DNA of 34,541 nt, taken from NCBI RefSeq assembly GCF_000373365.1, contig NZ_KB891244.1, positions 146 through 34,686 on the forward strand. The letters are read 5' to 3'. The translations under genes were made by a program, and so were the position numbers. The number at the start of each line of letters is the position of its first letter. The first letter of the stretch is position 1. Below, in pieces: positions 14,118-30,467 of this stretch. The stretch is from Parafrankia discariae (GTDB lineage: Bacteria; Actinomycetota; Actinomycetes; Frankiales; Frankiaceae). The notes beneath the pieces are model-generated. The model was not told where the DNA came from. It saw only the letters and a list, made by a program, of their open reading frames with translations, and ran no database searches.

Positions 14118-15234
14118 ATGGCGGCGCATCTCCCTCGCTGACCTGGTTCGGCTGCGGCGGGGATTCGACCTGCCGGCGCCGGAACGCCGGGCCGGTCGTT
14201 TTCCGGTGGTCGGTTCCGCCGGGGTCAGCGGGTGGCACGACCGGGGGCCGATCGCCGGGCCTGGGATCACTCTCGGGCGCAGCGGTTCGTCAATCGGCAC
14301 GGTGACGTACGTGCCGTCTGACTACTGGCCGTTGAACACCGTGCTGTTCGTCGAGGACTTCCAGGGCAACGATCCGCGTTTTCTCTACTTCCTGCTACGG
14401 ACGATCGACTTCGCCCGGTTCAACTCGGGGAGCGCGCAGCCGTCACTCAACCGCAACTACATCGCCGCCGTCGAGCTGCGCGCGCCGGAGCATCCCGAGC
14501 AGCGGGCGATCGCGGCGGTGCTGGGCGCCCTCGACGACAAGATCGCGCTGAATCGGCGTCTCGCCGCGACCGCCCGCGAGCTCGCCGAGGCCCGGTACGC
14601 GGCGGCGACGCGCGGGCCGGGCCGCCGGGAGCTCAGGCTCGGTGACCTGGTCGAGACGCTGACCCGGGGGATCACACCCCGGTACACGGCGGACGACGCC
14701 GCCCTCGTCGTGCTCAACCAGAAGTGCGTGCGCGCCGGCCGGGTCGACCTCGCTCCGTCCCGCGGGACGGAGCCGGCCGCGGTCCCCGCCGCGAAGCGGC
14801 TGCGGGCGGACGACGTCCTGGTCAACTCGACGGGCACCGGCACCCTGGGCCGGGTGGCGAGGTGGGTGCATGCGACGCGGGCGACCGTCGACTCGCATGT
14901 CACCGTCGTCCGGTTCGCGCCGGACCGGTTGGACCCGGTGTGCGGGGCGTTCGCCCTGCTGGCCGCGCAGCCGAGGATCACCTTGCTGGGCGAGGGCAGC
15001 ACCGGCCAGACCGAGCTGAGCAGGGCCAAGCTGAACGACCTGGTCATCGTGGTGCCGGCGGCCGAGCGGTGTGCCGGGATCGGCGCCGAGCTGGCGGCGC
15101 TGGACGCGCGCGGTGAGGCGGCGCACGCGGAGTCGGCGGCGCTGGCCCGGCTGCGGGACGCGCTGTCGCCGAAGCTGATGTCCGGGGAGGTCCGGGTCCG
15201 GGACGCGGAGCGGACCATGGAGAGCATGCTGTGA
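14110..15234 (+). CDS. hsdS: Type I restriction-modification specificity subunit (HsdS)
   Basis: ATG at 14110 overlaps the end of hsdM by 8 bp, and the product is 374 residues. There are two target-recognition domains, about residues 1-130 (FPVVGSAGVSGWHD, PSLNRNYIAA) and about 175-325 (VLVNSTGTGTLGRVA, GQTELSRAKLNDLVI). Each is followed by a conserved helical spacer: EQRAIAAVLGALDDKIALN in the middle and ALARLRDALSPKLMSGEVRV at the end. This is the full bipartite HsdS architecture, so a two-part recognition site is expected; the bases cannot be predicted here. Nothing looks truncated. Together with hsdM it forms an M-S module without a restriction subunit in view. Confidence 0.92.
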   Translation: MPEWRRISLADLVRLRRGFDLPAPERRAGRFPVVGSAGVSGWHDRGPIAGPGITLGRSGSSIGTVTYVPSDYWPLNTVLFVEDFQGNDPRFLYFLLRTIDFARFNSGSAQPSLNRNYIAAVELRAPEHPEQRAIAAVLGALDDKIALNRRLAATARELAEARYAAATRGPGRRELRLGDLVETLTRGITPRYTADDAALVVLNQKCVRAGRVDLAPSRGTEPAAVPAAKRLRADDVLVNSTGTGTLGRVARWVHATRATVDSHVTVVRFAPDRLDPVCGAFALLAAQPRITLLGEGSTGQTELSRAKLNDLVIVVPAAERCAGIGAELAALDARGEAAHAESAALARLRDALSPKLMSGEVRVRDAERTMESML

Positions 15235-15243
15235 CGGAGGAGG

Positions 15244-15278
15244 AGCGGGTCCGCCGGCGTCGGCGGCGGCGACCCGCT
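15244..15278. terminator. Hairpin between convergent genes, possible bidirectional terminator
   Basis: AGCGGGTC (15244-15251) pairs perfectly with GACCCGCT (15271-15278), and CCGCC/GGCGG can pair inside the loop. It starts 10 bp after the hsdS stop and ends 11 bp before the stop of the minus-strand gene. There is no U-tract, as is usual for GC-rich actinobacteria. Confidence 0.45.
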
Positions 15279-15288
15279 GGCCGCCGTA

Positions 15289-15720
15289 CTACCCGGTGAC
15301 GGGTGCCCCGGCCGCCACGGTCGCGATGACCATCGGCACGGTCGCGGTGGTTGCCGCGCTCGCCGGCACGGTGGTCGTGGTCGTGGCCGTTGCCGGGGCC
15401 GCTGCGGTCGCCGAGCGCGGGGCGGGCAGCGCGGGCAGCACCGGCAGCGGGGGCAGCGCGTGCAGACCGGGGATCGTCGTGGCGATCGGTGCGGGGAGCG
15501 ACGGCCGCGCGGGGGCGAGCGCGGGCAGCGGCAGCGGTGCCGACCTCGCCGCGGCGACCACCGCCCGGCGGCGTGCCGGGGTGAGGGCCGGTGTCGACGG
15601 CGCGTCCAGGTGAAGCTCGATCGCGTGCATCGCCAACATCATCAACATGAGGGCGAAGGGAAACGCCAGCACAATAAAGATCACTATTGGGGACGCCTTC
15701 CGTGCGGTGAGATCCGACAC
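15289..15720 (-). CDS. Small Ala/Pro/Thr-rich protein with one N-terminal membrane helix
   Basis: GTG at 15720 gives 143 residues. The start is MSDLTARKASP, followed by one strong hydrophobic helix (IVIFIVLAFPFALMLMMLAM, about residues 12-31) and a low-complexity tail rich in Ala, Pro, Thr and Leu. The tail has repeated Pro-Leu-Pro and Thr-Thr stretches. It may be an uncleaved signal anchor with an extended extracytoplasmic stalk. The helix-coding part is noticeably less GC-rich than the tail. There is no clear Shine-Dalgarno and no recognisable family. The gene is convergent with hsdS. The tail could partly be spurious if a frameshift is present, so I am only moderately sure. Confidence 0.45.
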   Translation of the reverse strand: MSDLTARKASPIVIFIVLAFPFALMLMMLAMHAIELHLDAPSTPALTPARRRAVVAAARSAPLPLPALAPARPSLPAPIATTIPGLHALPPLPVLPALPAPRSATAAAPATATTTTTVPASAATTATVPMVIATVAAGAPVTG

Positions 15721-15903
15721 GGCTGGTCACGGTGGGCGACCCGCAGGGCCCCCACCAGCCGTTCGCCTCATTACCGCACCAACCGGCCGATTCCTTCGCC
15801 CAGGAAACGGGCCAGCCTGGCATAGGTGGGCCTCCCCGCCACGATCGGACGCACCCGACGGCCCGGGGCCGCCGACCGGCCTGCCAGTCGACGGGCCGCG
15901 GGG

Positions 15904-16245
15904 TCACCGTCCGTGGTTCCGGTTCCATTCCCGCATCCGCCGCGGATAGCCGAGTACCGCGGCGTCGTACACGGGCACGCCCACCGACCGTGCCAGCTTG
16001 GCGGCGACGGTCGGCGTCCCGACCCGCCGGCGGATCCAGTCGCCGTCCCGGTCCACCGCGACAACCGTCGTGTCGGTCGCGGTTGTCTCCGGCTCGACGT
16101 AGAACTCCACCCCGGTCCGCTCCGCGACGAAGGCCCGCAGGTCGGCGAGGTCCGTGGGGCTGGCCTCCCGATCGAGCAGTGTGGCCCGGCTCTTCGAACG
16201 GCCCTGGCCGTACCGGCGCAGCAACAACCGGTCCCGCCAACTCAT
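15904..16245 (-). CDS. Conserved actinobacterial protein of unknown function
   Basis: ATG at 16245 gives 113 residues beginning MSWRDRLLLRRYGQ. A compact alpha/beta pattern follows: ADLRAFVAERTGVEFYVEP, TTATDTTVVAVDRDGDW, RRRVGTPTVAAKLARSVGVP and the C-terminal VYDAAVLGYPRRMREWNR. I recognise this arrangement, with the 'vEpeTt...TTvvaV..dGeW.RRrv' core and the 'vYd...GYPqRMRdy' end, as a small protein widespread in Streptomyces and relatives. It is sometimes labelled oxidoreductase without evidence. It is probably cytosolic. Function unknown. Confidence 0.75.
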   Translation of the reverse strand: MSWRDRLLLRRYGQGRSKSRATLLDREASPTDLADLRAFVAERTGVEFYVEPETTATDTTVVAVDRDGDWIRRRVGTPTVAAKLARSVGVPVYDAAVLGYPRRMREWNRNHGR

Positions 16246-16592
16246 CAGACGCCCTCCCGAAGGACCCGGCTCCAGTCGACTCCGACCATCGAAGCGCCGC
16301 CGTCCTAAACAAGCCTTGGCGGGACATCAGAACATCCTTGGACCACCCGTCGCGCTCGACGAGCCAGGCCCGGACGGCGACCCTCTCGGGGCCTGCTCGA
16401 CATCGAAGCCGGCGAGCACCTCGCCCGGTCTCGGCAGCGAGATCGCGGTCGGGCCCGCGCGGCGGCGGGGCCCGGCTGCCTCCCGAACGTCCTGGAAGCA
16501 GCCGGGCCCCGGTTCGTCCGTCCGTGTCACCGACTGATCTGGCGCGATGGGCTGTCAGCCCTGGAACCGCCGACCAGCCCGCCTGACGGAAT
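16246..16592. other. Intergenic region with a strong hairpin
   Basis: This 347-bp gap between two minus-strand genes has no convincing coding sequence. Its main feature is the 14-bp stem at 16466-16511. A short palindrome GGGCTGTCAGCCC lies at 16549-16561. Confidence 0.5.
16466..16511 (-). terminator. Strong GC hairpin downstream of the secreted paralogue genes
   Basis: CGGGGCCCGGCTGC (16466-16479) is perfectly complementary to GCAGCCGGGCCCCG (16498-16511), with an 18-base loop. It lies about 80 bp beyond the stop of the minus-strand gene ending at 16593, so it probably ends that transcript. There is no U-run. Confidence 0.65.
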
Positions 16593-18494
16593 CTATCGGC
16601 ACTGTCCCGATCGGACGCCGTTGACGGTGTTGCCCCTCTCCCGCACGGTGGGAATGTTTCCGGTGCAGCTCAGCCCGCCGCCGATGGTGTTCGCGGTGAC
16701 GGCGGGGACGGGGTCGGCGGGGTCCGGTCCGTCACCGCTGTTGTTCTTGACCGTGAGCGGCCCGCTGATCGTGGTGCCGCTGACCGACAGCCCACCGGTG
16801 TTGGTGTTCACGGTCAGGGTGCCCTTGACGGTGCTGCCCGTGCAGGGCAGGTAGTCCGAGCCGATCAGGACGAGGCCGGTGCTGCCCTGCACCGTGATGG
16901 CTCCGTTCACCGACGTCTGGCACAGGCTGAACGCGGCGGCCTGGTTGATGGAGACCGTCCCGGCGATCTCGGCTCCGGTCACGGCCAGTGCGCCGCCGGG
17001 CTGTACCGTGATCGCGCCCTGCTGCCGGCCGCCGGCCCCGAGGCACAGGGACTGCTCGGCCGTCACGGTGATGGCACCCTTGTGCACGGTGGTGATGCAG
17101 GGCTGGCTGAAGCCGACCGTGATCGTGGCCGGTGTCGGGGTCGCGCTGGGTTTGAAGGTCGGACCGCCGCTGTAGCGGGCCGTGATCTCGCGGGCTCCGG
17201 GCTGCAGGTTGGTGGTGCGCAAGGTGGCCGTGCCCATGGTCAGCGGGACGGTCGCCACGGGGATCGTCCCGTCGAAGAAGGTGACGGAACCGGTCGGGGT
17301 GCCGGCGCCGGGCACGACCGGTGACACCGTGGCCGTCAGTTCGACGGGCCGCCCGAACAGCGGGCTCGTGGTGCTCGGGGTCAGCGAGACCGACGAGTCG
17401 TGGTCGAAGTCGGCACACAGTGCGTACGCGCTCGCGACCTGGTCGCCCGTTCCGGCTCCCCCGCCAGCCGCGATGATCGCGCTCCAGGACGACGGGTTGG
17501 TCGTCCCGTTGACGACCGGATCACCGACCGCGTCGCTGGGATAGTTGCCACGGAGGTGGGTACCGGCGGCCGGCGGCCCGGCTGTGACGCCCCTCTGTAC
17601 GCCTTCTCCGCCCCCCAGCAGGGTGAGGTCCGTCGGGCAGCTCGCGGTGAGGATCGCGTATCCGCTGCCTTCCTGCGGGCCGAGACCGTCCGTCCGGGCC
17701 ACCCTGATCTCCGTCTCACCGGGTTCGGCGCAGATGGCCCACGCAATGGTCTGCGCGGTCCCGTCCGACTGCCCGTTGATGAGACCCATGGCGGTCCAGT
17801 ACCGGGGGTTGATCGCTCCGTCCGGGAGCGGGTTGCCCTGGGCGTCGCTGGGGAAGCTGCCCAGCGCTTTCAGGCTGGGTGACTGCGGGGGAGGCGTGTA
17901 CGCGCTGCCGCCCACGACGACGGTCCCGTCGGGACACGCGGCGGTGGCGTAGGCGAGGCCGGCCCGGACCGGGCCGGGGACGGCGGTCACGGCGACCACC
18001 CGGTGGTCGAGGTTCGCTCCCTCGGCGCACACCGCGAAGCTGGTGATCTTGTCACCGTCTTCGGTCTGCCCGCCGAAGTTGCCGACGGCCGCCCAGTGCT
18101 CGGGGTTCTGCGCGCCGTCGGTGCTGCTGATCCCGTTCGCGTCGCTGGGGAAGCTCCCCTTCGCGCGCAGCCCGTTGATGGGGGGGATGGGGTCGGTGGC
18201 ATCGATCTTGCTGCCCCACATGCCTCCGCTGACCAGCACGCTGCCCGCCGGGCACGATGTCACCGCCGTCGTGTTCGCCCCCGCCGCGGCGGACGGCACG
18301 GGAACATCGACGCTGGTCACATGGATCACCGGCTGCTGCGGTTCCGCCGCCGCGGCCGCGGCCGGTGCCACGACGGCGGGCGCCGCCGCGGCGAGGGCCA
18401 GCGCGAGTGGGGTCAGCGCGGCGACCACCACCCGCGATCGCCCAGGTGTCAGTTTTCGTCGACCCCGGCCCTCGGCCCGGCCCTTACCTGGCAT
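16593..18494 (-). CDS. Secreted protein: three Cys-framed repeats, Ig-like domain, beta-helix-like C-terminus (paralogue A)
   Basis: ATG at 18494, eight bases after a GGGGGG tract, gives 633 residues. This start matches that of the neighbouring paralogue. A long Arg-rich then Ala-rich signal peptide covers residues 1 to about 50. Three repeats of roughly 105 residues follow, each running from a CPxGxxLxGGG-like strand through a G-x-(F/Y)PSD turn and an NPxxW motif to an A-x-C ending (FAVCAEG, AICAEPG, ALCADFD). Then comes an Ig-like domain (TSPLFGRPVELTATVSP, TGSVTFFDG). The C-terminal 150 residues show short periodic strands (GAITV, GTLTV, GPLTV) like a right-handed beta-helix, with paired cysteines. 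I infer an exported structural or surface protein. No catalytic motif is visible and no known family name comes to mind. Confidence 0.8.
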   Translation of the reverse strand: MPGKGRAEGRGRRKLTPGRSRVVVAALTPLALALAAAAPAVVAPAAAAAAEPQQPVIHVTSVDVPVPSAAAGANTTAVTSCPAGSVLVSGGMWGSKIDATDPIPPINGLRAKGSFPSDANGISSTDGAQNPEHWAAVGNFGGQTEDGDKITSFAVCAEGANLDHRVVAVTAVPGPVRAGLAYATAACPDGTVVVGGSAYTPPPQSPSLKALGSFPSDAQGNPLPDGAINPRYWTAMGLINGQSDGTAQTIAWAICAEPGETEIRVARTDGLGPQEGSGYAILTASCPTDLTLLGGGEGVQRGVTAGPPAAGTHLRGNYPSDAVGDPVVNGTTNPSSWSAIIAAGGGAGTGDQVASAYALCADFDHDSSVSLTPSTTSPLFGRPVELTATVSPVVPGAGTPTGSVTFFDGTIPVATVPLTMGTATLRTTNLQPGAREITARYSGGPTFKPSATPTPATITVGFSQPCITTVHKGAITVTAEQSLCLGAGGRQQGAITVQPGGALAVTGAEIAGTVSINQAAAFSLCQTSVNGAITVQGSTGLVLIGSDYLPCTGSTVKGTLTVNTNTGGLSVSGTTISGPLTVKNNSGDGPDPADPVPAVTANTIGGGLSCTGNIPTVRERGNTVNGVRSGQCR

Positions 18495-18537
18495 CGTGCG
18501 AGCCCCCCGCAATCACCTGGTTGTCGGTGTTCAGCCG

Positions 18538-18568
18538 CGGCAACGGTCGGCGCGGGGCCGGGTTGCCG
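18538..18568 (-). terminator. Short hairpin between the two paralogues
   Basis: CGGCAAC (18538-18544) pairs with GTTGCCG (18562-18568). It starts immediately after the stop of paralogue B on the minus strand and precedes the ribosome-binding site of paralogue A. It may attenuate read-through between them. The stem is only 7 bp. Confidence 0.3.
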
Positions 18569-18575
18569 TCGATTC

Positions 18576-20477
18576 TCATTTGCACTGTCCGGATCGGGAG
18601 CCGTGGGCGGTGTTGGCCGTCTGCCGCAGGGTGGGAGTGTTCCCGCTGCAGCTCAGGGAGCCACCGACCTGGTTCGTGGTCACCGCGGGGACGGGATTCT
18701 CGGGGTCCGGGCCGTTACCGCCGTTGTCCTTGACCGTCAGCGATCCACCGGTCGTGTTGCCGATGATCTGTACGCCTCCGGTATTACCGGTCACGTTCAG
18801 GGCGCCCTTGATCGTGTTACCCGCACAGGGCAGATGATCCGAGCCGATCAGGACGAGGCCGGTGCCGGCCTGGACCGTGACACCGCCGCTCACCGAGCTT
18901 TGGCACAGCGTGAACGCGGAGGCGCCGCTACTGGAGACCGTCCCGACGATCTCAGCGCCGGTCACCGCCAACGCGCCGCCCGGTTCGACATTCACCGCAC
19001 CCTTCTGCTGGCCGCCGGGGCCGATGCAGAGGGCCTGCTCGGGCCGCACCGTCAGGGTGCTCTTGTGCACGGTGGTGAGGCACGGCTCACTGAAACCGAC
19101 CGTGATCGCCGTTGGTGCCGTGGAGCTGGGGTGGAAGGTCGGGCCTCCGCTGTAGCTCGCCGTGATCTGGTGGGTTCCGGGCTGCAGGCCGGAAGTACGG
19201 AAGACGGCGTTCCCCGCGGCAGTCAGCGCAACGGTCGCCAGGGGGGCCGTCCCGTCCGAGAAGGTGACGGTTCCGGTCGGGCTGCCGACAGTGCGCAGGG
19301 CCGGCAGCACCGAGGCCGTCAGTTCGACGGGCCGCCCGAACAGCGGGCTCGTGGTGTTCGTCGCCAGCGAGGTCGACGTGTCATGGTCGAAGTCGGCGCA
19401 CAGCGCGAAGGTGCTTGTGACCTGATCGCCCGTCCCGCCGGACCCACCCGCCGCGATGAGTGAACTCCACGAGGAGGGATTGGTCGACCCGTTGCCGGCG
19501 GGAACACCCGCCGGGTCACTGGGGTAGCTGCCACGCACATACGCGTCGGCCGCATACGCCCCACCCGCGCCCCTTTGCAGGTGCTCCCCGCCGCCCAGCA
19601 GAGCCAGATCCGCCGGGCAGCTCGCGGTGGAGATCACCTGACCGTTGCTGACCTGCGGGCCGAGACCGTCCTTGCGAACCACCCTGATATCGATGTCGGC
19701 GGGCTTGGCGCACATGACGCTCGCCATGGTCCGCGTGTTCGCCGGAGCCGGCCCGCTGCCGACCACCACGGCGGTCCAGTACCGAGGGTCCGTCGCTCCG
19801 TCCGGGAGCGGGTTCCCCGCAGCGTCGCTGGGAAAACTGCTCACCGTCTTCAGGCCGGCCACCGACCCGGACAGCGCCAGCCCGCCGCCACTCACCGCCA
19901 CGGTCCCGCCGGGACACGCGGCCGTCGTCTGGACGATGCCGGCCTCTCTCGGGCCGATCGCGAGTTGTGCGCGGACCGCCAGTTGGCCGAGCAACGTCGC
20001 TCCCGAGACACACACCGCGAAACTGGAGACCCTGGCGCCGTCTTCGGGCTGCCCGAAGAAGTCGCCCACACCGGCCCAGTACTCGGGGATCTCCCCCGTC
20101 TGGTCATTGATCTGGGTCCCGTCCGCGTGGCTGGGGAAGGTCCCCTTCGCGCGCAGCCCGTTGATGGGGGGGACGGGGTCGGTGACGTTGATCCCGCTGG
20201 CCCGTACACCCCCGCCGAGCAGCACGCTGCCCGTCGGGCACCAGGTCACCGCAGTCGCGGAGCCCGACGGCGTAACCGGGACGGGAACGTCGGCGGCGGT
20301 GACGCGGATCACCGGTTCCTGCGGTTCCGCCGCGGCGGCTGCGGCCGGTGCCACGACGGCGGGCGCCGCCGCGGCGAGGGCCAGCGCGAGTGTGGACAGC
20401 GCGACGGCCACTCCCCGGGATCGCCCAGGTCTCAGTTGTCGCCGGCCCCGGCCCGTGGCCCGGTCTTCACGTGGCAT
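18576..20477 (-). CDS. Secreted protein: three Cys-framed repeats, Ig-like domain, beta-helix-like C-terminus (paralogue B)
   Basis: ATG at 20477 has the same GGGGGGC ribosome-binding region as paralogue A and gives exactly the same length, 633 residues. The order is the same: an Arg-rich then Ala-rich signal sequence, three C...C repeats (CPTGSVLLGGG, CPGGTVAVSGGG, CPADLALLGGG), an Ig-like domain from about residue 385, and a beta-helix-like end with KGALNV, GSLTV and GGSLSCSGN. The Ig and C-terminal parts are more alike between the two than the repeats, whose loops differ considerably. This is a tandem duplication 81 bp apart. Retention of all cysteines and of length argues that both are functional. 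Role unknown; extracellular location inferred. Confidence 0.8.
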   Translation of the reverse strand: MPREDRATGRGRRQLRPGRSRGVAVALSTLALALAAAAPAVVAPAAAAAAEPQEPVIRVTAADVPVPVTPSGSATAVTWCPTGSVLLGGGVRASGINVTDPVPPINGLRAKGTFPSHADGTQINDQTGEIPEYWAGVGDFFGQPEDGARVSSFAVCVSGATLLGQLAVRAQLAIGPREAGIVQTTAACPGGTVAVSGGGLALSGSVAGLKTVSSFPSDAAGNPLPDGATDPRYWTAVVVGSGPAPANTRTMASVMCAKPADIDIRVVRKDGLGPQVSNGQVISTASCPADLALLGGGEHLQRGAGGAYAADAYVRGSYPSDPAGVPAGNGSTNPSSWSSLIAAGGSGGTGDQVTSTFALCADFDHDTSTSLATNTTSPLFGRPVELTASVLPALRTVGSPTGTVTFSDGTAPLATVALTAAGNAVFRTSGLQPGTHQITASYSGGPTFHPSSTAPTAITVGFSEPCLTTVHKSTLTVRPEQALCIGPGGQQKGAVNVEPGGALAVTGAEIVGTVSSSGASAFTLCQSSVSGGVTVQAGTGLVLIGSDHLPCAGNTIKGALNVTGNTGGVQIIGNTTGGSLTVKDNGGNGPDPENPVPAVTTNQVGGSLSCSGNTPTLRQTANTAHGSRSGQCK

Positions 20478-20830
20478 CGTGCCTGCCCCCCGAAATCATC
20501 TGGTTGGTCTACAGGCGCGGTGACTCCCCGCTCCTGACGTGCGGCCCAGCCGAGTGGTGACGCGGTACCGGAGACATCAGGCGAGCACCCGTGGTCGCGG
20601 ATCGTCACCTGTCTGAGCGGACAGCACCGTACTACTTGCGGAGCCGCAAAAACCAGAACTATCGGCGTAATCACCCGCATCTGCGGAAGGAGAGCGTTAG
20701 GGGAAACTGTGCGCAGTAGATCCCGTACCTGAGGTAGCCCGGCAGGCGGGCCGTGCGCCGAGCGCCGCACCCACCTGCCGGGGTCGTGCTGTTCCCCTGC
20801 GTTACGTGACCATTGCGCTGCGCGCGTCGG
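20478..20830. other. Intergenic region between the secreted paralogues and their broken relative
   Basis: This 353-bp gap has no coding sequence. It holds the compound hairpin at 20738-20782 next to the upstream gene. A less GC-rich stretch at about 20625-20700 probably carries the promoter of paralogue B, but no -35/-10 pair is certain. Confidence 0.45.
20738..20782 (-). terminator. Compound hairpin downstream of the frameshifted secreted protein
   Basis: CCCGGCAGG (20738-20746) pairs perfectly with CCTGCCGGG (20774-20782). The loop can form a second stem from GTGCG and CGCAC. It lies about 50 bp beyond the stop of the minus-strand gene at 20831, as a terminator would. Confidence 0.55.
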
Positions 20831-21939
20831 TCAGTTGCCGGTCATGCACAGCGCCCAGACATGGGACCTGGTGGCGCTCGTCGAGCCGTTTCCTCCGGTG
20901 TGCGTGGTGGACGTCCAGTACGCCGGCGAGGTGGTGAGCGGGTTCCCGCTCGAGTCGCTGGGGTAGCTGCCGTTCAGGTGGTCACCCTGTGCTCCCGGCG
21001 CATTGAAAGCGGAGGCCGTGATGTCGCCACCGCTGATACCGGCGCCGCCACTGATCAGCGTCCCGTCGCCTTGCTCGCATCCGACGGTGGTCTTCTGCGG
21101 CGCGCCGACCGTGGTCGGGCCGGTTGTCTCGTCATAGCGCACCGTCACGGTCACGCCGCTGACGTCGATGTCATCCCCGCTGCAGATGGCGTACGCATAG
21201 GTGACGTAGCCGCTGCCCGCCATCCCGCCGTTCTGCGCACCGGCGGCCCAGGAGTCCGGGTTGGTCTCCCGTCGGCGGCGGCGATCTGACCGTTGCTGTG
21301 CGTGCCCAGGCCGGTGCCGTCCAGATAGGTGGGGTAGCTGTCGATGGGCTTGGCCGGCCCCGCGGTGCCCGGGGTGAGCCGGGCCCCGCCGCCCAGGAGA
21401 CGGGTGTCCTCGGGGCAGGTCGCCGCCGCCAGGGCGGTCGCCCCGGCACTGGTCGGCCCCGCGACGCTGTTCATCACGATCTGGGTGCCCGTGATCGTGT
21501 CACCCGGGTCCAGGCACATGGCGTACGGCGTCGAGCCGAAGGCGGCGTCGAGGCCGCCGCCGGACCCACCCGTGCCGCCGACGGCGAGTGCCTGCGTCGC
21601 ATCGGTGTCGACGACTCCGGGCGAGTAGGCGGAGGCAATGTACTCGGCGGTGCCGTCATAGGGCGCGATGCCCTTGACGTGCAGGTTGCTCTGCGCTGCC
21701 CCGGTACCGACGGTCTGGAGAATGCCGACCCCGGTGACCACGTCGTCGGTGTCACCGCCGCTCCGACAGTCCGCGCTGCTCACGCTTTGCGAGTTCGCCG
21801 AGCCCGGTCCGGACGTGGCGCCAGGGCTGCGGACCGTAACAGTGGTTGAGGCGTAGGCGGTTCCTGGCAGTGCGACCGCCAGCACGGCGCCCAGGGCGAG
21901 CGCTGTGAACAACGGTGGCCGTAGAGATTTTCTCGCCAT
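20831..21939 (-). pseudogene. Secreted protein with three Cys-framed repeats, broken by a single-base frameshift
   Basis: ATG at 21939, after a GGAAGAAGGA-type ribosome-binding site, starts a clear signal peptide (LFTALALGAVLAVALPG, cleavage likely after AYA). The frame carries repeat 1 (CRSGGDTDDV to YAMCLDPGD) and the first half of repeat 2 (CPEDTRLLGGGARL). It then loses homology after NGQIAAADG. Another frame resumes with TNPDSWAAGAQNGGM, the NPxxW motif seen in the paralogues, and continues through repeat 3 (CEQGDGTLISGGAG to ALCMTGN). One extra G in the run at 21268-21270 would give DGETNPDSW and a 369-residue protein, and 1109 + 1 bases is a multiple of three. It has the repeat part of paralogues A and B but no Ig or beta-helix part. 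It is either a recent mutation or a homopolymer sequencing error. Confidence 0.8.
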
Positions 21940-22983: not shown

Positions 22984-24810
22984 ATGACGGTTGAGGTCGG
23001 TGGGGCGAACGGCAGGCGTACCGCCGGCCCGGCGCGGAAGGCGGCGGCCGTGGCGCCGGTCGGCCGGGTGCTCGGCACGGAGGAGAACACGCCTCTGCTG
23101 TTCCACGTCGCCCTGCTGGAGGGCAGCTACCTGCAGCTTGACGACGTGGTCGTCACCGTCCGCGCGGTGCCCGGGGTCGGGCCGGTGATGACCGCCGGCA
23201 TCGTCACCCAGGTGCGGGCCCGGCACGAGGGCGCGTCCTTCGGCTCGGATGTCTTCCTGATCGCCGACGGCGTCCTGCCCGCGCAGGTGCAGGAGATCGC
23301 CGAGGTCACCACGACCCGGGTGGAGCCGGAGGTCTACGTCCCGCCGCTGCCCGGTGAGCAGGTGCGGCGGGCGACCGGCGACGAGCGGGCGACGGCGCTG
23401 TACTTCGACATGATGGACAAGCGGATCCCGGTCGGCATCGGGCGGGACGGCAACCCGATCTACGTCAACCTCGAGTTCCTCGACGGCACCCGGGGCGCGC
23501 ACGTCTCCATCAGCGGCATCTCGGGGGTCGCCACCAAGACCAGTTTCGCGCTCTTCCTGCTGCATTCGATCTTCCGCTGTGGGGTGCTGGGGCGGGCCGC
23601 GGTGAACACCAAGGCGCTGGTGTTCTCGGTGAAGGGCGAGGACCTGCTGTTCCTCGACCACGGCAACGTCCGGATCGACGACGATGTGCGCGCGCGCTAC
23701 CGCCTGCTGGACCTGCCCGCCGAGCCGTTCCGCTCGGTCGGCTTCTTCGCCCCGCCGCTGCCCGACGACACCTCGGGACGGCCGCACGTCGCCTCCCGGC
23801 CTACCGGGGTGGCCGCGTTCTGGTGGACGATCCAGGAGTTCTGCGCGGGTGAGCTGCTGCCGTACGTGTTCGCCGACGCCGAGGACGACCGCAACCAGTA
23901 CACGATCGTCGTCCACCAGGTGGCCCTGCGGCTGCGCACGGACGCGGTGCCCGCCGGCGCCGACGGGGCCGTCAGCATCGACGGCCAGCTGGTGCGGACC
24001 TACTCCGAGCTGGTCGACCTGATCGTCGACCGGCTGACCGACGAGGAGACGCGCCGGGACTGGGCCGGCCCGGTGACGGGCGCCGGGACGGTCAACGCGT
24101 TCGTCCGCCGGCTGCGGTCGTCGTTGCGTTCGCTGCGGTCGCTGATCCGGGCGGATCTGGCGGACAGTCCGCGCCGGCGGGTGTCGACGGCCGACCAGCA
24201 GGTGACCGTGGTCGACCTGCACAACCTGCCGGAGCGGGCGCAGCGGTTCGTCGTCGGGGTGGTGCTCGCCGCGGAGACGAGACGCAAGGAGGAGGCCGGC
24301 GCCGGCGGCCTGCTGTTCACGATGATCGACGAGCTGAACAAGTACGCCCCGCGGGAGGGCACGAGCCCCATCAAGGAGGTGCTGCTCGACATCGCCGAGC
24401 GTGGCCGTTCGCTGGGCATCATCCTGATCGGCGCGCAGCAGACCGCGAGCGAGGTCGAGCGGCGGATCATCGCGAACAGCTCGATCAAGGTGGTCGGCCG
24501 GCTGGACTCGGCCGAGGCGGGCCGGCCCGAGTACGGGTTCCTGCCGCCCGGGCAGCGCGCCCGGGCCACGCTGGCCAAGCCGGGCACGATGTTCATCTCC
24601 CAGCCGGAGATCCCGGTGCCGCTCGCGGTGGAGTTCCCGTTCCCCGCCTGGGCGACCCGGCACTCCGAGACCGCGGGCCTCGCATCCGCGGCCACCGACC
24701 CGCCGCCCGGCTCACCCACCGGACCGCCCGGCAAGCCGCCCCCCGCGCCGATGCCCCGCAACCCCTTCGACCTCCTGCCCAACCCCACCGACGAGGCCCC
24801 GCCGTTCTGA
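22984..24810 (+). CDS. herA: HerA-like hexameric ATPase / DNA translocase
   Basis: ATG at 22984, after a G-rich GGGGG stretch, gives 608 residues. The N-terminal 150 residues look like a HAS-barrel (GRVLGTEENTPLLFHVAL, PVMTAGIVTQVRARHEG). The ATPase core has an unusual P-loop, ISGISGVATKTS (Lys185), where the canonical GxGK is replaced by ATK. Walker B is LLFTMIDELNKYAP (Asp449, Glu450), followed by the sensor-like GAQQTASEVERRI and an SIKVVGRLDSAEA stretch typical of HerA/FtsK-fold translocases. A proline-rich tail of about 50 residues ends the protein. It lies 22 bp before sbcD and in one operon with sbcC and a NurA-like nuclease. By analogy with archaeal HerA it would pump DNA for the nuclease. 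The name HerA is by homology only. Confidence 0.8.
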   Translation: MTVEVGGANGRRTAGPARKAAAVAPVGRVLGTEENTPLLFHVALLEGSYLQLDDVVVTVRAVPGVGPVMTAGIVTQVRARHEGASFGSDVFLIADGVLPAQVQEIAEVTTTRVEPEVYVPPLPGEQVRRATGDERATALYFDMMDKRIPVGIGRDGNPIYVNLEFLDGTRGAHVSISGISGVATKTSFALFLLHSIFRCGVLGRAAVNTKALVFSVKGEDLLFLDHGNVRIDDDVRARYRLLDLPAEPFRSVGFFAPPLPDDTSGRPHVASRPTGVAAFWWTIQEFCAGELLPYVFADAEDDRNQYTIVVHQVALRLRTDAVPAGADGAVSIDGQLVRTYSELVDLIVDRLTDEETRRDWAGPVTGAGTVNAFVRRLRSSLRSLRSLIRADLADSPRRRVSTADQQVTVVDLHNLPERAQRFVVGVVLAAETRRKEEAGAGGLLFTMIDELNKYAPREGTSPIKEVLLDIAERGRSLGIILIGAQQTASEVERRIIANSSIKVVGRLDSAEAGRPEYGFLPPGQRARATLAKPGTMFISQPEIPVPLAVEFPFPAWATRHSETAGLASAATDPPPGSPTGPPGKPPPAPMPRNPFDLLPNPTDEAPPF

Positions 24811-24832
24811 CCTCCGGCCGTTAGGGACCGCC

Positions 24833-25996
24833 ATGAAGTTCCTGCACACCTCGGACTGGCACCTCGGCAAGACGCTCAAGGGACGCAACCGGCTCGACGA
24901 GCAGCGCGCGGTACTCGGGGAGATCATCGGGATCGCCCGGGAGCACGAGGTCGACGCGGTGCTCGTCGCCGGGGACGTCTACGACAGCGCGGCCCCGCCG
25001 GCGGCGGCCCAGCAGCTCGCCGTGCAGGCGCTGGTCGCGTTGCGCGGCACCGGGGCCGAGGTGGTCGTGATCGCGGGCAACCACGACCATCAGCCGACCT
25101 TCGACGCCTACCGGCCGCTGATGTCCGCCGCCGGGATCACCCTGGTCGGAACGCCGCGCACCGCCGCCGACGGTGGGGTGGTCACGTTCCGGGCGCCTGG
25201 CACCGGGGAGCCGGTGACCGTGGCGGCGTTGCCGTTCGTCTCCCAGCGGTACGCCGTCCGCGCCGCAGACCTGGTGACCCAGACGCCCGACCAGACCTCG
25301 GCCCGCTACGACCAGGTCGTGCGCGCCCTGGTGGAACAGTTGCGCGGCGGCTTCGACGACAACGCGGTGAACCTCGTCCTGGCCCATCTGACGGTGACGA
25401 ACGGCCTGTTCGGCGGCGGGGAGCGGATGGCCCAGTCGATCTTCGAGTATCACGTGTCCGCGGCGGCGTTCCCCGCGGACGCCCACTATGTGGCGCTGGG
25501 GCATCTGCACCGGCGGCAGACCCTCGCCGCGCCGTGTCCGGTGGTGTACTCCGGTGCGCCGCTCGCGGTCGACTTCGGGGAGCAGGAGAACACGAACGTG
25601 GTGTGCCTCGTCGAGGCGAGCCCCGGCGTCCCCGCCCGGGTCACCGACATCGCGCTGACGGCCGGCCGCCGGCTGCGGACGGTCCGCGGCACGGTCGCCG
25701 AGCTCGCCGCGCGGGCCCCGGAGCTCGCAGAGGACCTGCTGCGGGTGGTGGTGCGCGAGCCGGCCCGGGCGGGGCTGCGCGACGACGTCCAGGAGCTGCT
25801 GCCGAACGCGCTCGAGGTCGGCATCGATCCGGAGTTCCGGGTGGCCCTCGGCGGGTCACGCCCGAGCGCGGCGGCGCTGGCGCGGCGCAGCCCGGCGGAC
25901 CTGTTCCGGGAGTACTGCGCCGCCGAGCGGTTCGACGATCCCCGGGTCGAGGCGCTGTTCGTCCGGCTGCACGACGACGCCTCCAGCGGCGACTGA
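24833..25996 (+). CDS. sbcD: Exonuclease SbcCD, subunit D (Mre11-like)
   Basis: ATG at 24833 with AGGGA five bases upstream gives 387 residues. All phosphoesterase motifs are visible: DWHLGK near residue 8, GDVYD, GNHDH, the LAHLTV histidine and YVALGHLHRR. These residues bind the two manganese ions of Mre11-family nucleases. The C-terminal third would be the capping domain and the SbcC-binding segment. Product and partner act on DNA ends and hairpins, with 3'-5' exonuclease and endonuclease activity in characterised relatives. The next gene is 20 bp downstream, so the complex is co-expressed. Confidence 0.95.
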   Translation: MKFLHTSDWHLGKTLKGRNRLDEQRAVLGEIIGIAREHEVDAVLVAGDVYDSAAPPAAAQQLAVQALVALRGTGAEVVVIAGNHDHQPTFDAYRPLMSAAGITLVGTPRTAADGGVVTFRAPGTGEPVTVAALPFVSQRYAVRAADLVTQTPDQTSARYDQVVRALVEQLRGGFDDNAVNLVLAHLTVTNGLFGGGERMAQSIFEYHVSAAAFPADAHYVALGHLHRRQTLAAPCPVVYSGAPLAVDFGEQENTNVVCLVEASPGVPARVTDIALTAGRRLRTVRGTVAELAARAPELAEDLLRVVVREPARAGLRDDVQELLPNALEVGIDPEFRVALGGSRPSAAALARRSPADLFREYCAAERFDDPRVEALFVRLHDDASSGD

Positions 25997-26016
25997 GGGA
26001 CCTGGGAGGAGACTGA

Positions 26017-29000
26017 ATGCGCCCGGTACAGCTGGACCTCGCCGGTTTCGGGTCGTTCCGGGAACCGGCGGTGCTCGACCTCGCCGACGCCGACTACTTC
26101 GCGCTGGTGGGCCCGACCGGCGCCGGCAAGTCGACGCTGATCGACGCGCTGACGTTCGCGCTGTTCGGTTCGGTGCCGCGCTGGAACAACCGGGCGACGG
26201 TGCACCTGGCGCTCGCCCCGACCGCGGCCCGGGGCACCGTGCGTCTCGTCTTCGACGTGGCCGGCGCCCGCTACGTGGTGGCGCGGGAGCTGCGCCGGGC
26301 CGCCCGCGGCGGGGTGAGCGTGCGCAACGCCCGGTTCGAGCGGCTGGTCGACCCGGCCGGCGCGGGTGAGCCGGGGGAGCCGACGGAGGTGCTCGCCGCG
26401 GGCGCGCCCGCGGTCACCGCGGCGGTCGAGGAGCTGCTCGGGCTCACCTTCGAGCATTTCTGCACCTGTGTGGTGCTTCCGCAGGGTGAGTTCGCCGAGT
26501 TCCTGCGGGCGAAGCCGAGCGAGCGGCAGGCCATCCTCACCCGGCTGCTCGGGCTGGGCGTCTACGACACGATCCGCGCGGCGGCCAACGCCCGCGCGAG
26601 TGACCAGCGTCAGCGCGCGGACGTGTTCGCCGAGCAGCTCGCCGGGTACGCGGACGCGACGGCGGCCGCCGAGACCGCCGCGGCCGACCGGGTCGGGGCG
26701 CTCACCCGGCTGGCGGCCGAGGTGGCCGGCGCGCTCGCCGAGCTGGCGGGGCTGGACACCGCCGCCGCGCAGGCCGCCGCCGAGACCGCCAGGCTGGCCG
26801 CCGAGCGCGACCGGCTCGCCGCCGTCCGGCCGCCGGCCGGGCTGGCGGATCTCGCCGGGCGGCTGCGCGCGGCCCGGGCCGCCGACACGGATGCCCGTGA
26901 GCGCCGGCAGGAGGCCGAGCGGGCGGACAGCGTCGCGCGGGAACAGCTCGCGGCCGCCGCGCCGCGCGGCCCGCTCGACCGGTCTGCCCGTGACCACGCG
27001 GAGCTCGCCGACCTGCTCGCGACCCGGCCGACGGCCGGCACCGAGCAGGCCGCCGCCGACACGGCCCTCGCCGCCGCGGCCGCGGCGCTCGAGGAGGCGA
27101 GAGACGGGCTGGCGACGGCGCGGGCCGCCGAACGAGCGGCCGAGCGGGCCGCCGACCTCGCCGCCGCCGAGACGGGCCGGCTCGGGTCCGAGCTGGATCT
27201 GCTCGCCGGTGTCCGGGCGCCGGGTGGGCTGGCGGCCCTCACCGGCCGGCTGCGCGAAGCCGAGGCGGTGCGGGCCGCGGCCGTCGAATATCGGGAGGCG
27301 GCCGAGCGGGCGGATACCGCCGTCCGTGCGGAGCGGGCCGCCGCGCCGCCGCGTGGCCCGCTGGAGCGGGCGCTGCGCGACCACGAGCGGCTCGCCGAGC
27401 TGTCGGCCGGCCAGGCCGGGGCGGCGGCCGCCCACGGCGAGGCCCGGGCCGCGCTCGACCGGGCGAACGCGGCCCTGGAGGCGGCCCGGCACGCCCGGCA
27501 GCGGGCGGCCGGCGTCCGGGACGAGGCCGCCCGCGCCGATCTGGCCGCGGCGCTGCGGCCGCACCTGGTGGTGGGGGAGGACTGCCTGGTCTGCGCGCGG
27601 CCCGTCGCGACGCTGCCACCCGCGTTGCCGGCCGCCGGTCTCGGTGTCGCGGACGAGGCGGTGGCCGCCGCCGAGCACGAGCTCGCCGCCTGCACCGCGC
27701 AGGCGCACGCCGCCACGCGGGCGGCGCTGGAATCCGAGGCCCACCTCACGGACCTGGATAACCGGGTCGAGGAGCTGCGTCGCGGGCTCACCGACGCGCC
27801 GGACGCCCGGCACGCGGCGGCTCTGCTCGCGGACGTCGAACGGCTCGACGGCGACGTCGCCCGTGCCGACCTGGCGCTGCGTCGGGCCCGTGACGCCGCG
27901 GCCGCCGCCGACGCGGCCGTCACCCGCTCCCGGGACGAGGCGGCCGGGGCCCGGCGGGCGCTCGACGCCGTCCGCGACCCGTTGGTGTTCCTCGGCGCCC
28001 CCGCTCTGCCGGACGGTGACCTGGAGGCGGCCTGGGCGACGCTGGTCACCTGGGCCGCCGGGCTGGCCCGTGACCGGGCCGGCCAGCGGGACGCGGCGGC
28101 CGGGCGCTCGGCCGCGGCCGCGGGGTCGCTCGCCGCCGCGCGGCAGGCGCTGGCCCTCGCCTCCGCGGGGCAGGCGCGGGCGGACGAGGAGCGGATCGCC
28201 GCGGCCCGGGCCCAGCAGCGGGCCGCCACCCGGATCGCGACCCTGGACGATCGGACCGAAGCCCTGCGCGCCGCGCTCGCCGGTGCGCCGACCGCTGCGG
28301 CGGTGGCGGCCGCGCTCGCCGAGCTGGACCGACTCGCCGCCACCGCCGACCGGGCCGACCAGCGGCTGCGTGCCGCCCGGGCGGAGGCCGACGACGCCGA
28401 GCGGGCGTTCGAGCGGGCCCGGGACGCCCTCGGCGCGGCCGGCGTCGCGCTGGCCGCGGCCCGCGACGGTCTCGTCCCGCTCGGCGCGCCCGTGGTCGAC
28501 GGCGAGGACGTCCTGGCCGGCTGGACGGTGCTGGCCGACTGGTCCCGCGGGCAGGTGACGGCCCGGGAGCGGCTGCTCGCCGAGGCCGCCGCCGAGGCCG
28601 AGGCCGCCCGCCGGCGGCACGAGGAGGCGGACCGGGCGCTGGGCGAGCGGCTCGCCACCCACGATCTGCCACCCGGCCCCGGCCCCGGCCCCGGTTCTGG
28701 TTCTGGTTCTGGTTCCAGGACCGCCGACGGTGCGTCCGTCGTGGTGGCGGACGGGCTGGCGGGGGCTCGCGCGGAGCTCGCCCGGGTCGTCGAGCGCCGG
28801 GCCGAGGCCGCCCGGCTCGCCGCCGAGGTGGCGGCGGCGCGTGAGGCGGATCAGATCGCCCGCCAGCTCGGCCAGCTGCTGCGCTCCGACCGGTTCCCGC
28901 GCTGGATGGTGGCCGCCGCGCTGGATATCCTGGTCGAGGAGGCGTCGGTGACGCTGTCGGAGCTTTCCGGCGGGCAGTTCGAGCTGACCCACGAGGAGGG

Positions 29001-29358
29001 CGAGTTCCTGGTCGTCGACCACGCCGACGCCGACTCGCGCCGGCCGGTGCGGACCCTGTCCGGCGGGGAGACGTTCCAGGCCAGCCTGGCGTTGGCGCTC
29101 GCGTTGTCCTCCCAGCTGCGGGCGATGGCGGCCGGTGGGGCGGCCTCGCTCGACTCGCTGTTCCTCGACGAGGGCTTCGGCACCCTCGACGAGGCGACCC
29201 TGGATGTCGTCGCGAGCACCCTGGAGAGTCTCGCGAGCGGCGGCGGGCGGATGGTCGGCCTGGTCACCCACGTCCAGGCGCTGGCAGAGCGGGTCCCCGT
29301 ACGCTTCGCGGTGAACCGGGACCAGCGGACGTCGACCGTCGTCAGGGAGCGCACTTGA
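26017..29358 (+). CDS. sbcC: Exonuclease SbcCD, subunit C (Rad50-like SMC ATPase)
   Basis: ATG at 26017 follows GGGAGGAGA, an excellent Shine-Dalgarno, and gives 1113 residues. The N-terminal ATPase half has Walker A GPTGAGKST (Lys38) and the Q-loop LPQGEFAEFL. Two very long Ala/Glu/Arg-rich coiled-coil arms flank the zinc hook CLVC (Cys523 and Cys526). The C-terminal half has signature TLSGGETFQAS and Walker B LFLDEGFGTLDE (Asp1051, Glu1052). All key residues are present, so it should be an active Rad50-type clamp for SbcD. A Gly-Pro/Gly-Ser hexamer repeat interrupts the returning coiled coil at about residues 887-900. The stop overlaps the next start (TTGA). Confidence 0.95.
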   Translation: MRPVQLDLAGFGSFREPAVLDLADADYFALVGPTGAGKSTLIDALTFALFGSVPRWNNRATVHLALAPTAARGTVRLVFDVAGARYVVARELRRAARGGVSVRNARFERLVDPAGAGEPGEPTEVLAAGAPAVTAAVEELLGLTFEHFCTCVVLPQGEFAEFLRAKPSERQAILTRLLGLGVYDTIRAAANARASDQRQRADVFAEQLAGYADATAAAETAAADRVGALTRLAAEVAGALAELAGLDTAAAQAAAETARLAAERDRLAAVRPPAGLADLAGRLRAARAADTDARERRQEAERADSVAREQLAAAAPRGPLDRSARDHAELADLLATRPTAGTEQAAADTALAAAAAALEEARDGLATARAAERAAERAADLAAAETGRLGSELDLLAGVRAPGGLAALTGRLREAEAVRAAAVEYREAAERADTAVRAERAAAPPRGPLERALRDHERLAELSAGQAGAAAAHGEARAALDRANAALEAARHARQRAAGVRDEAARADLAAALRPHLVVGEDCLVCARPVATLPPALPAAGLGVADEAVAAAEHELAACTAQAHAATRAALESEAHLTDLDNRVEELRRGLTDAPDARHAAALLADVERLDGDVARADLALRRARDAAAAADAAVTRSRDEAAGARRALDAVRDPLVFLGAPALPDGDLEAAWATLVTWAAGLARDRAGQRDAAAGRSAAAAGSLAAARQALALASAGQARADEERIAAARAQQRAATRIATLDDRTEALRAALAGAPTAAAVAAALAELDRLAATADRADQRLRAARAEADDAERAFERARDALGAAGVALAAARDGLVPLGAPVVDGEDVLAGWTVLADWSRGQVTARERLLAEAAAEAEAARRRHEEADRALGERLATHDLPPGPGPGPGSGSGSGSRTADGASVVVADGLAGARAELARVVERRAEAARLAAEVAAAREADQIARQLGQLLRSDRFPRWMVAAALDILVEEASVTLSELSGGQFELTHEEGEFLVVDHADADSRRPVRTLSGGETFQASLALALALSSQLRAMAAGGAASLDSLFLDEGFGTLDEATLDVVASTLESLASGGGRMVGLVTHVQALAERVPVRFAVNRDQRTSTVVRERT
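28675..28716 (+). repeat. Hexanucleotide repeat in sbcC
   Basis: Three copies of GGCCCC (28675-28692) are followed by three GGTTCT and one GGTTCC (28693-28716). In frame they encode three Gly-Pro and four Gly-Ser pairs, a flexible insertion in the C-terminal coiled-coil arm. Confidence 0.95.
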
Positions 29359-30467
29359 CCGAGGCACCAGCACGCCCGCGGCCGGCCGCGCCGGCCGGAC
29401 CGGCCGCCGCACCGTCCGCACCGGTCGAACCCGCCGCACCGGTCGTGCCCGCGGGCGGGATGAGGTTCAGTGTCGACGCCTGGGATCCCGGCTACGGGAC
29501 GAGCCTCGGCGAGGAGGAGCTCGTCGAGTCCAGCGCCCCGGTCGTGCTGGACGTCGAGGTGCCCGAGTCGGCGTGGGCGCCGCGGGACCCGGCCCCGGGC
29601 ACGGCCGCGCCGGCCGCGGTGCTGTTCGTCGACGGGGTGCGCCGGGTCGAGGGCCGCGCCTGGATCCACGACAGCGTGCCCACCGGTGAGCGGGCGACGT
29701 CCGCGCTGCCGGCCCTGTGCGCCTCCTACGCCAGCGGCGTCGTCTGCTGCTGCGCTGCCGGGGCCCACCTGGCCGTCGCGACGGTGCGCCGGGGGACGTT
29801 CACCGCCGCCGCGCACGCCGCGGACGTCCGGACGTCCGCCGGTGACTATCCCGTGCGCCGCACGCGCGCGACCGACCCGGTCGGGCTGAGCCTGGCGTTG
29901 CAGCGGGCCCTCGGCGAGCTCGAGGTGGAGTCGGCCGCCGCGGCCCGCGCCCAGCTCGGCGACCACCCGACCGGCGGCCACCCGGGCGGCCACACCGGCG
30001 GCCACCTGGCGGACGGCACCGACCTGCTGGTCGTCGACGGCCCGCTGCGCGGGCGTCAGCATCTGCCGCGGACCCTGGGCTTCGTCAAGACCCACCAGTC
30101 GGCCTACCTTCCGCCGCGCCAGCACGCGATGGTCGGCACCCTGGGCCCGGGGCAGCGCACCCCGGTCTTCCTGATGGGTTCCAGCTGGGACCGGCACAGC
30201 TGGTACCTGCGGCTGCCCGGCGGGCCGGGCGCGCCGTGGGCCGGGGTGGTGCGGGTCGAGTGCGGCGCGGACATGTCCGCCGCCGAGGCGATCGCGCTGG
30301 CCGACCAGAGCCAGGTGACGCTGCGGCGCTTCGCCTCCGCCGAGTTCAAGGACGCCCGCGCCCCGCAGAACCTCTACCCGATCGCCGGCCTGGAACGGGC
30401 GCTGCGCCGCCGGATGGGCGACCCCCAGCTGCTGTACCGCGCGCTGCGCCGTGCCGCGGTGAACTGA
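29355..30467 (+). CDS. nurA: NurA-like DNA-end nuclease
   Basis: TTG at 29355 overlaps the sbcC stop by four bases, with GGGAG five bases upstream, and gives 370 residues. A disordered Ala/Pro leader of about 40 residues comes first. The body has the NurA-type pattern: [12 protein letters not shown] (Asp93), then [10 protein letters not shown] (Asp228), [11 protein letters not shown] (Lys245), and a C-terminal [20 protein letters not shown]. NurA proteins are manganese-dependent nucleases of RNase H-like fold that resect 5' ends together with HerA. A Gly-Gly-His repeat at 29970-30005 lies between the two aspartate motifs. The assignment rests on motif pattern plus the herA-sbcD-sbcC context, so it is likely but not certain. 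Confidence 0.75.
29970..30005 (+). repeat. Three 12-bp repeats in the nurA-like gene
   Basis: ACCGGCGGCCAC, CCGGGCGGCCAC and ACCGGCGGCCAC follow one another at 29970, 29982 and 29994. They encode [12 protein letters not shown] in a loop before the second aspartate motif. Confidence 0.9.

Follow-up and report, generated by a model that had tools for sequence, protein, structure and literature searches.

A compact four-gene operon with a predicted role in DNA-end processing, herA-sbcD-sbcC-nurA, was confirmed in a 34,541-nucleotide stretch of DNA from the soil actinobacterium Parafrankia discariae (contig NZ_KB891244.1, assembly GCF_000373365.1; hereafter the window). Judged from the homology of their products, the four genes probably make up one self-contained machine. 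They are consecutive at positions 22984-30467 and all lie on the + strand, as established by a check of open reading frames (ORFs). The initial annotation of this DNA had proposed a HerA-like ATPase, SbcD, SbcC and a NurA-like nuclease spaced by 22, 20 and −4 bp. Coordinates and gaps were reproduced, and all four identities were borne out, with HerA and NurA, previously guessed from motifs, now backed by homology. GC content at third codon positions (GC3) was 0.93-0.96 across the four genes, a codon bias of coding type. The −4 bp overlap between sbcC and nurA holds only if nurA starts at the TTG at 29355; the alternative start, an ATG at 29460, leaves a 101 bp spacer after sbcC and is where the conserved part of NurA begins. 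Operon status was read from the gene layout, in which the genes are contiguous on a single strand in an arrangement conserved among relatives. The features of the locus are as follows:

22984..24810, + strand: herA, 608-aa HerA/FtsK-superfamily DNA translocase ATPase (phmmer to Deinococcus radiodurans HerA, 7f6d_B)
23515..23541, + strand: HerA Walker A GISGVATKT, residues 178-186 (identical string in D. radiodurans HerA)
24328..24354, + strand: HerA Walker B D449/E450 and pore arginine R457 (alignment to D. radiodurans HerA 487/488 and R495)
24833..25996, + strand: sbcD, SbcD/Mre11 nuclease, 387 aa, lineage specific to the cassette (TIGR00619, trees)
26017..29358, + strand: sbcC, 1113-aa SbcC/Rad50 ATPase (TIGR00618; Pfam AAA_23 and SbcC_Walker_B)
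26110..26136, + strand: SbcC Walker A GPTGAGKST
27583..27594, + strand: SbcC zinc-hook CxxC, residues 523-526
29056..29178, + strand: SbcC signature LSGGE and Walker B LFLDEGF
29355..30467, + strand: nurA nuclease of 370 aa (start TTG 29355) or 335 aa (start ATG 29460)
29631..29633, + strand: NurA catalytic D93 (D. radiodurans NurA D53; alignment, 93/93 loci)
30087..30089, + strand: NurA K245 (D. radiodurans NurA K201; alignment, 93/93 loci)
30357..30359, + strand: NurA R335 (D. radiodurans NurA R309; alignment, 93/93 loci)

The product of the first gene matched the HerA of D. radiodurans (drHerA, 7f6d_B) in a phmmer search of solved structures, with an expectation value (E) of 3e-141 over residues 22-570, the N-terminal part included. 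Its Walker A motif is non-canonical (GISGVATKT), a feature common to drHerA, and G178, G181, T184 and K185 were invariant in all 93 aligned cassette loci. These 93 loci, on which residue conservation and distances were computed, carry all four genes near full length and include at least four genomes twice. The HerA-type Walker B that had been proposed is present as MIDELNKY. The HAS-barrel-like start proposed with it would follow from the full-length match to drHerA. Alignment to drHerA, for which the roles of residues 487/488 and R495 have been described (PMC9960219), located Walker A, Walker B and the pore arginines, with R514 as the second of these.

SbcD scored 188 bits against the bacterial model TIGR00619 (cut-off 77.65) vs. 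53 bits with Sulfolobus Mre11. SbcC matched TIGR00618 with an E of 8e-74 and 249 bits, which is under the cut-off of 478.5 for that model, and its mid-protein CxxC was found in 92 of the 93 loci. By these profile matches, both proteins belong to the bacterial subfamily. The cassette SbcD is the only SbcD over the cut-off in the window genome; the other match reached 59 bits vs. 77.65, and no SbcC match was found beside it.

NurA was identified through its structural relatives. The protein matched D. radiodurans NurA (drNurA, 7f6d_H) at an E of 1e-17 by phmmer, and a profile built from 21 relatives matched drNurA at 2e-57 and Thermotoga maritima NurA TM1739 (1zup) at 5e-18. An AlphaFold2 model (predicted local distance difference test score, pLDDT, 85; predicted template modelling score, pTM, 0.84) was compared with known structures by Foldseek and returned 7f6d (9e-19), 1zup (1e-13) and Sulfolobus solfataricus NurA 2ygk (1.6e-5), bearing out an RNase H-like NurA fold for 29355-30467. 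The two VDG motifs noted initially hold D93 and D228, and the NLYPI segment corresponds to residues 339-343. D93, K245 and R335 align with D53, K201 and R309, which are functionally important in drNurA (PMC9960219). Chance motifs as the source of the NurA call were ruled out by the drNurA match, the profile match and the Foldseek results.

In Sulfolobus and Pyrococcus, the order of the archaeal operon is herA-mre11-rad50-nurA. The initial description of the Parafrankia operon as archaeal-style held for its gene set and architecture but not for its protein type, as both SbcD and SbcC fall in the bacterial subfamily, HerA and NurA match Deinococcus, and NurA also matches Thermotoga by profile. 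Archaeal HerA-NurA works with Mre11-Rad50, and the four functions lie in one operon (PMC2288612, PMC4351679), as they do here; the NurA fold is also the same, by the Foldseek match to 2ygk. In contrast, sequence and profile searches of the Protein Data Bank for NurA returned Deinococcus and Thermotoga and no archaeal NurA, and an AdnAB-like enzyme co-exists with the cassette in the window genome (see below). Solved relatives of HerA and NurA at significant E came only from Deinococcus and, by profile, Thermotoga. A recent transfer from archaea was not favoured because the proteins are bacterial in type.

The gene order proved to be conserved in relatives. Among the best 80 of at least 521 related loci (the named loci), herA-sbcD-sbcC-nurA was complete in 62 and none was out of order; the other 18 were without the upstream genes (nine sbcD-sbcC-nurA and nine sbcC-nurA), some of them at contig ends. 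Across the phylum, a NurA match was found in 34 of 149 genomes drawn, the window genome included. Forty regions were fetched, representing 31 of the 33 other NurA-positive phylum genomes (without G052 and G127) and nine relatives. All four genes were present in 32 of these regions, arranged as herA-sbcD-sbcC-nurA in 14 and rotated to nurA-herA-sbcD-sbcC in 18, and one or more of the four genes were missing from the remaining eight. Carriers among the matches listed included Parafrankia, Pseudofrankia, Pseudonocardia, Amycolatopsis, Nonomuraea, Kineosporia and Nocardioides, as well as a few Streptomyces, Gordonia and Mycobacterium. Distribution was patchy in the class of the window organism, with NurA in 14 of 197 genomes (its own counted), and NurA was frequent in certain families within the phylum (f7, 7/9; f13, 8/11; f43, 3/3; f14, 4/7).

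Flanking genes gave no constant extra partner: clustering of flank ORFs from the 80 loci and the window yielded no family in more than 14 loci, and the cluster representatives listed came mostly from Amycolatopsis and Pseudonocardia. An IrrE-family protease beside the cassette was rejected as a partner: among the loci searched, relatives of the one on a Streptomyces plasmid were confined to L141, and the one of Chlorohelix had none. Six Streptomycetaceae loci (L108, L111, L117, L121, L122 and L211) carry a helicase with helicase-associated repeats after nurA, 80-84% identical to that of L211; L121 and L122 are one genome.

The cassette was also found on plasmids. Searching 72,556 plasmid records for HerA produced six matches, and of the five that were opened, four carry the cassette adjoining the HerA gene: a 451-kb Streptomyces plasmid, a conjugative Sphaerospermopsis plasmid, an Aulosira plasmid and a Chlorohelix plasmid (Chloroflexota). 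The two cyanobacterial plasmids (Sphaerospermopsis and Aulosira) and that of Chlorohelix have the order nurA-herA-sbcD-sbcC. NurA of Sphaerospermopsis and Chlorohelix is backed by similarity to cassette NurA, and the Aulosira NurA and SbcC labels come from position and from alignments and trees built on them. An unannotated 11.85 Mb record with a HerA match (H2) is probably a chromosome. A virus-borne cassette was considered and rejected, as none was found in the viral contigs searched; three phage records had only distant HerA matches. By these gene assignments, the cassette is present in Actinomycetota, Cyanobacteriota and Chloroflexota.

Two unrooted SbcD trees were built, the first from every third named locus, without L205 and short rows, and the second with L200 and L209 excluded and 16 of 31 housekeeping rows included. 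Housekeeping SbcD clustered apart from cassette SbcD in both (29 rows, support 100/100; 16 rows, support 100/99), and the loci in the order of the window formed a single SbcD group (100/95 and 98/91). L200 and L209, labelled housekeeping, were placed elsewhere on long branches in the first tree, and L059, L068, L198, L201 and L212-L214 sat on long, unsure branches. These placements set the cassette SbcD off as a lineage distinct from most housekeeping SbcD. When HerA and NurA were placed in faster trees, two changes in total sufficed for the three cassette groups, which is the minimum. Pairwise distances of the four proteins over the 93 loci correlated at 0.91-0.95 (Pearson), in favour of inheritance of the four genes as a unit. 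One genome that has an ordinary rotated cassette also carries a second, divergent set of herA, sbcD, sbcC and nurA (L198, G146:C15:9500-18500); in the trees, its SbcD joins, on long branches, the SbcD of the Chlorohelix and Aulosira plasmids.

Gain and loss were followed in 30 relatives. Full HerA was present in nine, with weak or broken HerA matches in G160 and G174. NurA occurred in the same nine genomes and as a relic fragment in G150, and cassette-type SbcD occurred in the nine and, as two pieces at contig ends, in G156, which had no HerA or NurA match. An ordinary SbcD was also present in four of the nine cassette-bearing relatives (G158, G159, G162 and G165), approximately 34-49% identical to the cassette SbcD over aligned pieces. 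G153, of the same genus as the window organism, had no NurA. The NurA fragment of G150 adjoins genes that flank the cassette in its congener G152, and loss of the cassette in G150 is therefore most likely. Among 16 related loci compared, the genes downstream of the window cassette were common only to a Parafrankia soli genome, which indicates that the cassette sits in different places.

A mechanism can be proposed from the known activities of the homologs. The SbcC-SbcD complex would grip a DNA end, blocked or hairpin ends included, and open it by nicking. A HerA hexamer would then load and pump the duplex into a NurA dimer. By splitting the strands and digesting the 5' one, the dimer would either produce a 3' single strand or degrade the molecule altogether. 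Deinococcus HerA-NurA performs translocation-coupled resection of the 5' strand in vitro (PMC9960219). Bacterial HerA-NurA has been described from Deinococcus-Thermus (PMC9960219, PMC12977600), and the D. radiodurans proteins (7f6d) are the closest solved relatives, with the same catalytic and pore residues; unlike the present cassette, they are described as a herA-nurA pair, and the connection to SbcCD is left open in the relevant text of PMC4663267. The nearest published arrangement is that of Oceanithermus profundus, in which sbcD and sbcC lie downstream of hepA, interpreted as a recruitment in that organism (PMC5448004). There, too, the four genes are together, and nurA-hepA-sbcD-sbcC, with SbcD and SbcC downstream of the herA homolog, equals the rotated actinobacterial order; that report concerns a single Thermales species, whereas the present set occurs in three other phyla. 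Overall, the bacterial four-gene cassette is real and conserved, and its predicted end-processing mechanism is well supported by homology.

Several results weigh against the view of one dedicated DNA-end processing machine. The HerA protein matched no Pfam family up to an E of 1 in a single-sequence search, PF01935 included, so the profile check proposed for the first gene failed. The corresponding check of the last gene failed as well, with no match to PF09376 (NurA, Pfam) for the nurA product nor anywhere in the genome, and the identity of NurA rests instead on the structure-database and profile matches. The distance correlations given above ignore shared species history and count at least four genomes twice. 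In D. radiodurans, a nurA-herA double knockout was approximately 10-fold more resistant to high-dose ultraviolet (UV) light and mitomycin C (PMC9960219), a phenotype not expected of a main repair enzyme. Some neighbouring genes, given next, also count on this side.

The use to which the machine would be put was considered under two main readings. The first is a dedicated anti-phage or anti-plasmid system that would degrade invading linear DNA and spread with other defence genes; from its gene neighbourhoods this is a real, though tentative, possibility. The cassette of the 451-kb Streptomyces plasmid adjoins genes annotated as TIGR02680, TIGR02678 and DUF2397, which we take to be Wadjet JetC, JetB and JetA, and one for an ImmA/IrrE-family protease, and transposase genes lie approximately 7.8 and 2.5 kb upstream of the cassette on the conjugative Sphaerospermopsis plasmid. 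PADLOC was applied to 105 flank proteins from 12 cassette loci, picked by hand with one or two per genus. The matches listed (25 of 56 families) included SngABC, pPIWI-RE, a type I methyltransferase and type IV restriction (mREase_IV), the last not tied to any locus. At least three of the 12 loci had defence-type neighbours (Nocardioides L126, Streptomyces L121 and L092): Shango SngABC stood beside the Nocardioides copy, pPIWI-RE beside one Streptomyces copy and the type I methyltransferase beside another, and a relative of this methyltransferase also adjoins the cassette in L144. None of these four types was matched among 119 flank proteins of the control, 12 of 15 fetched housekeeping SbcCD regions, whose genomes are of other genera than the cassette set. 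The control gave PDC-S48 twice, PbeA twice, DEDDh and Csa3; PDC-S48 and DEDDh matched in both sets, and PbeA and Csa3 only in the control.

The same reading draws on other HerA-nuclease pairs, HerA-SIR2 and HerA-DUF4297, which are antiviral (PMC12977600). Like TdpAB, these join a HerA-like ATPase ring with a nuclease, and the NurA model matched a chain of the TdpAB complex (8wfd) at an E of 5e-4 by Foldseek. They differ from the cassette, which has NurA as its nuclease and SbcCD in addition; Pfam detected no SIR2 or DUF4297 partner among the 24 other window ORFs submitted to it, the window PADLOC search covering the four cassette proteins only. Large neighbouring genes examined in Amycolatopsis, Kineosporia, Sinosporangium, Streptosporangium and Parafrankia EUN1f proved not to be defence genes, the one in Amycolatopsis being a glycoside hydrolase, and those tested in L141, L156, L164 and L104 had no PADLOC match, all of which counts against a general defence role. 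The cassette proteins themselves gave weak or generic PADLOC matches (HerA best to mad8, 3e-10; SbcC best to mad3, 2e-21) or, for NurA, none, and the viral contigs searched held no relatives. The defence-gene neighbourhood in some lineages is therefore suggestive only. In the window, genes of a type I restriction system end approximately 8 kb upstream of the cassette:

12423-15234, + strand: HsdM (N6_Mtase, HsdM_N) and HsdS (Methylase_S), type I restriction (Pfam), 7.8-10.6 kb upstream of herA

No HsdR was found among the window ORFs scanned. Between these genes and the cassette, two tandem ORFs of approximately 635 aa on the − strand (16593-18512 and 18576-20477) each carry a bacterial Ig-like Big_3_5 domain and are perhaps secreted or surface proteins.

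The second reading is core homologous recombination as in hyperthermophilic archaea, in which SbcCD would start resection and HerA-NurA extend it, in parallel to AdnAB; we consider this possible but somewhat doubtful. The gene set and catalytic parts are the same as those of the archaeal operon, all four genes of which are essential in Sulfolobus islandicus (PMC4351679). D. radiodurans herA and nurA mutants show less intermolecular recombination (PMC4663267, PMC5448004), and mutation of herA (hepA) sensitizes Thermus thermophilus to UV and high temperature (PMC5448004). The frequency of NurA in families f7, f13, f43 and f14 and the position of the only above-cut-off SbcD of the window genome inside the cassette argue on the same side. 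Against it stand the patchiness in the class, the relic in G150 and the absence of NurA from G153 within the genus, the resistance gained by the Deinococcus double knockout, and the presence of another resection enzyme. Specifically, the window genome encodes two tandem ORFs (G000:C107), each with UvrD helicase and PD-(D/E)XK nuclease domains. This architecture we take to be that of AdnAB, a name that no model gave to these ORFs.

The initial annotation had offered the operon as an alternative or addition to AddAB/AdnAB. In view of the AdnAB-like tandem in the same genome, an alternative was rejected, and an addition fits better, given also that at least one PF12705 match was found in 32 of the 34 NurA-positive phylum genomes, PF12705 alone being no proof of AdnAB. 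In Pseudonocardia, the cassette is followed within a few kb by RecD-, RecB- and RecC-like genes (in L124 at 12539-20912, on the opposite strand); among 22 Pseudonocardia loci, probes found recB-like genes near the cassette in 12, recC-like in 11 and recD-like in 13, and all loci matched by these probes were Pseudonocardia. Together, the AdnAB-like tandem and the RecBCD-like neighbours argue that the cassette is an addition. Two genomes of family f16 (G130 and G141) have a weak NurA match and HerA and no PF12705 match, and it is possible that HerA-NurA substitutes for AddAB/AdnAB in them.

In this organism, we slightly favour an accessory role over core recombination: alongside AdnAB or RecBCD, the cassette would destroy or resect linear DNA that is foreign or damaged. 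The cassette may be core repair in the other actinobacterial families where it is common. A bolder version, which we hold to be rather doubtful, is a mobile four-gene defence machine outside the defence database searched, in which a dedicated SbcCD would grip incoming linear ends and feed them to HerA-NurA, found in three phyla and a counterpart, possibly the source, of the archaeal operon. That HerA-NurA and SbcCD are separate systems brought together by chance or a loose neighbourhood is very improbable: it would suit the 1-3 kb between herA and sbcD in several Pseudonocardia loci and in L045 and L046, the Thermus nurA-hepA pair reported to lie amid genes unrelated to DNA metabolism (PMC5448004) and the solitary cassette-type SbcD of G156, but not the complete order in 62 of the 80 best-ranked loci, the same gene set in three phyla, a cassette SbcD distinct from the housekeeping copy of its family, or the co-occurrence of HerA, NurA and cassette-type SbcD in nine of 30 relatives.

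Oceanithermus was the only earlier published bacterial case found (PMC5448004). No published report of actinobacterial, cyanobacterial or Chloroflexota cassettes was found in the literature listings searched; a 2004 survey of FtsK-HerA may mention bacterial cases. Findings on the role of bacterial HerA-NurA point in opposite directions, the Deinococcus double knockout being more damage-resistant although recombination is reduced. A genetically coherent set that brings its own SbcCD, and that occurs in tractable mesophiles alongside AdnAB-like or RecBCD enzymes, opens this question to direct tests. The cassette is relevant, too, to the origin of the archaeal set, be it by inheritance, by transfer or by repeated assembly. 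Recurring in other bacteria and on some plasmids, it may be a portable device that trims or destroys DNA ends.

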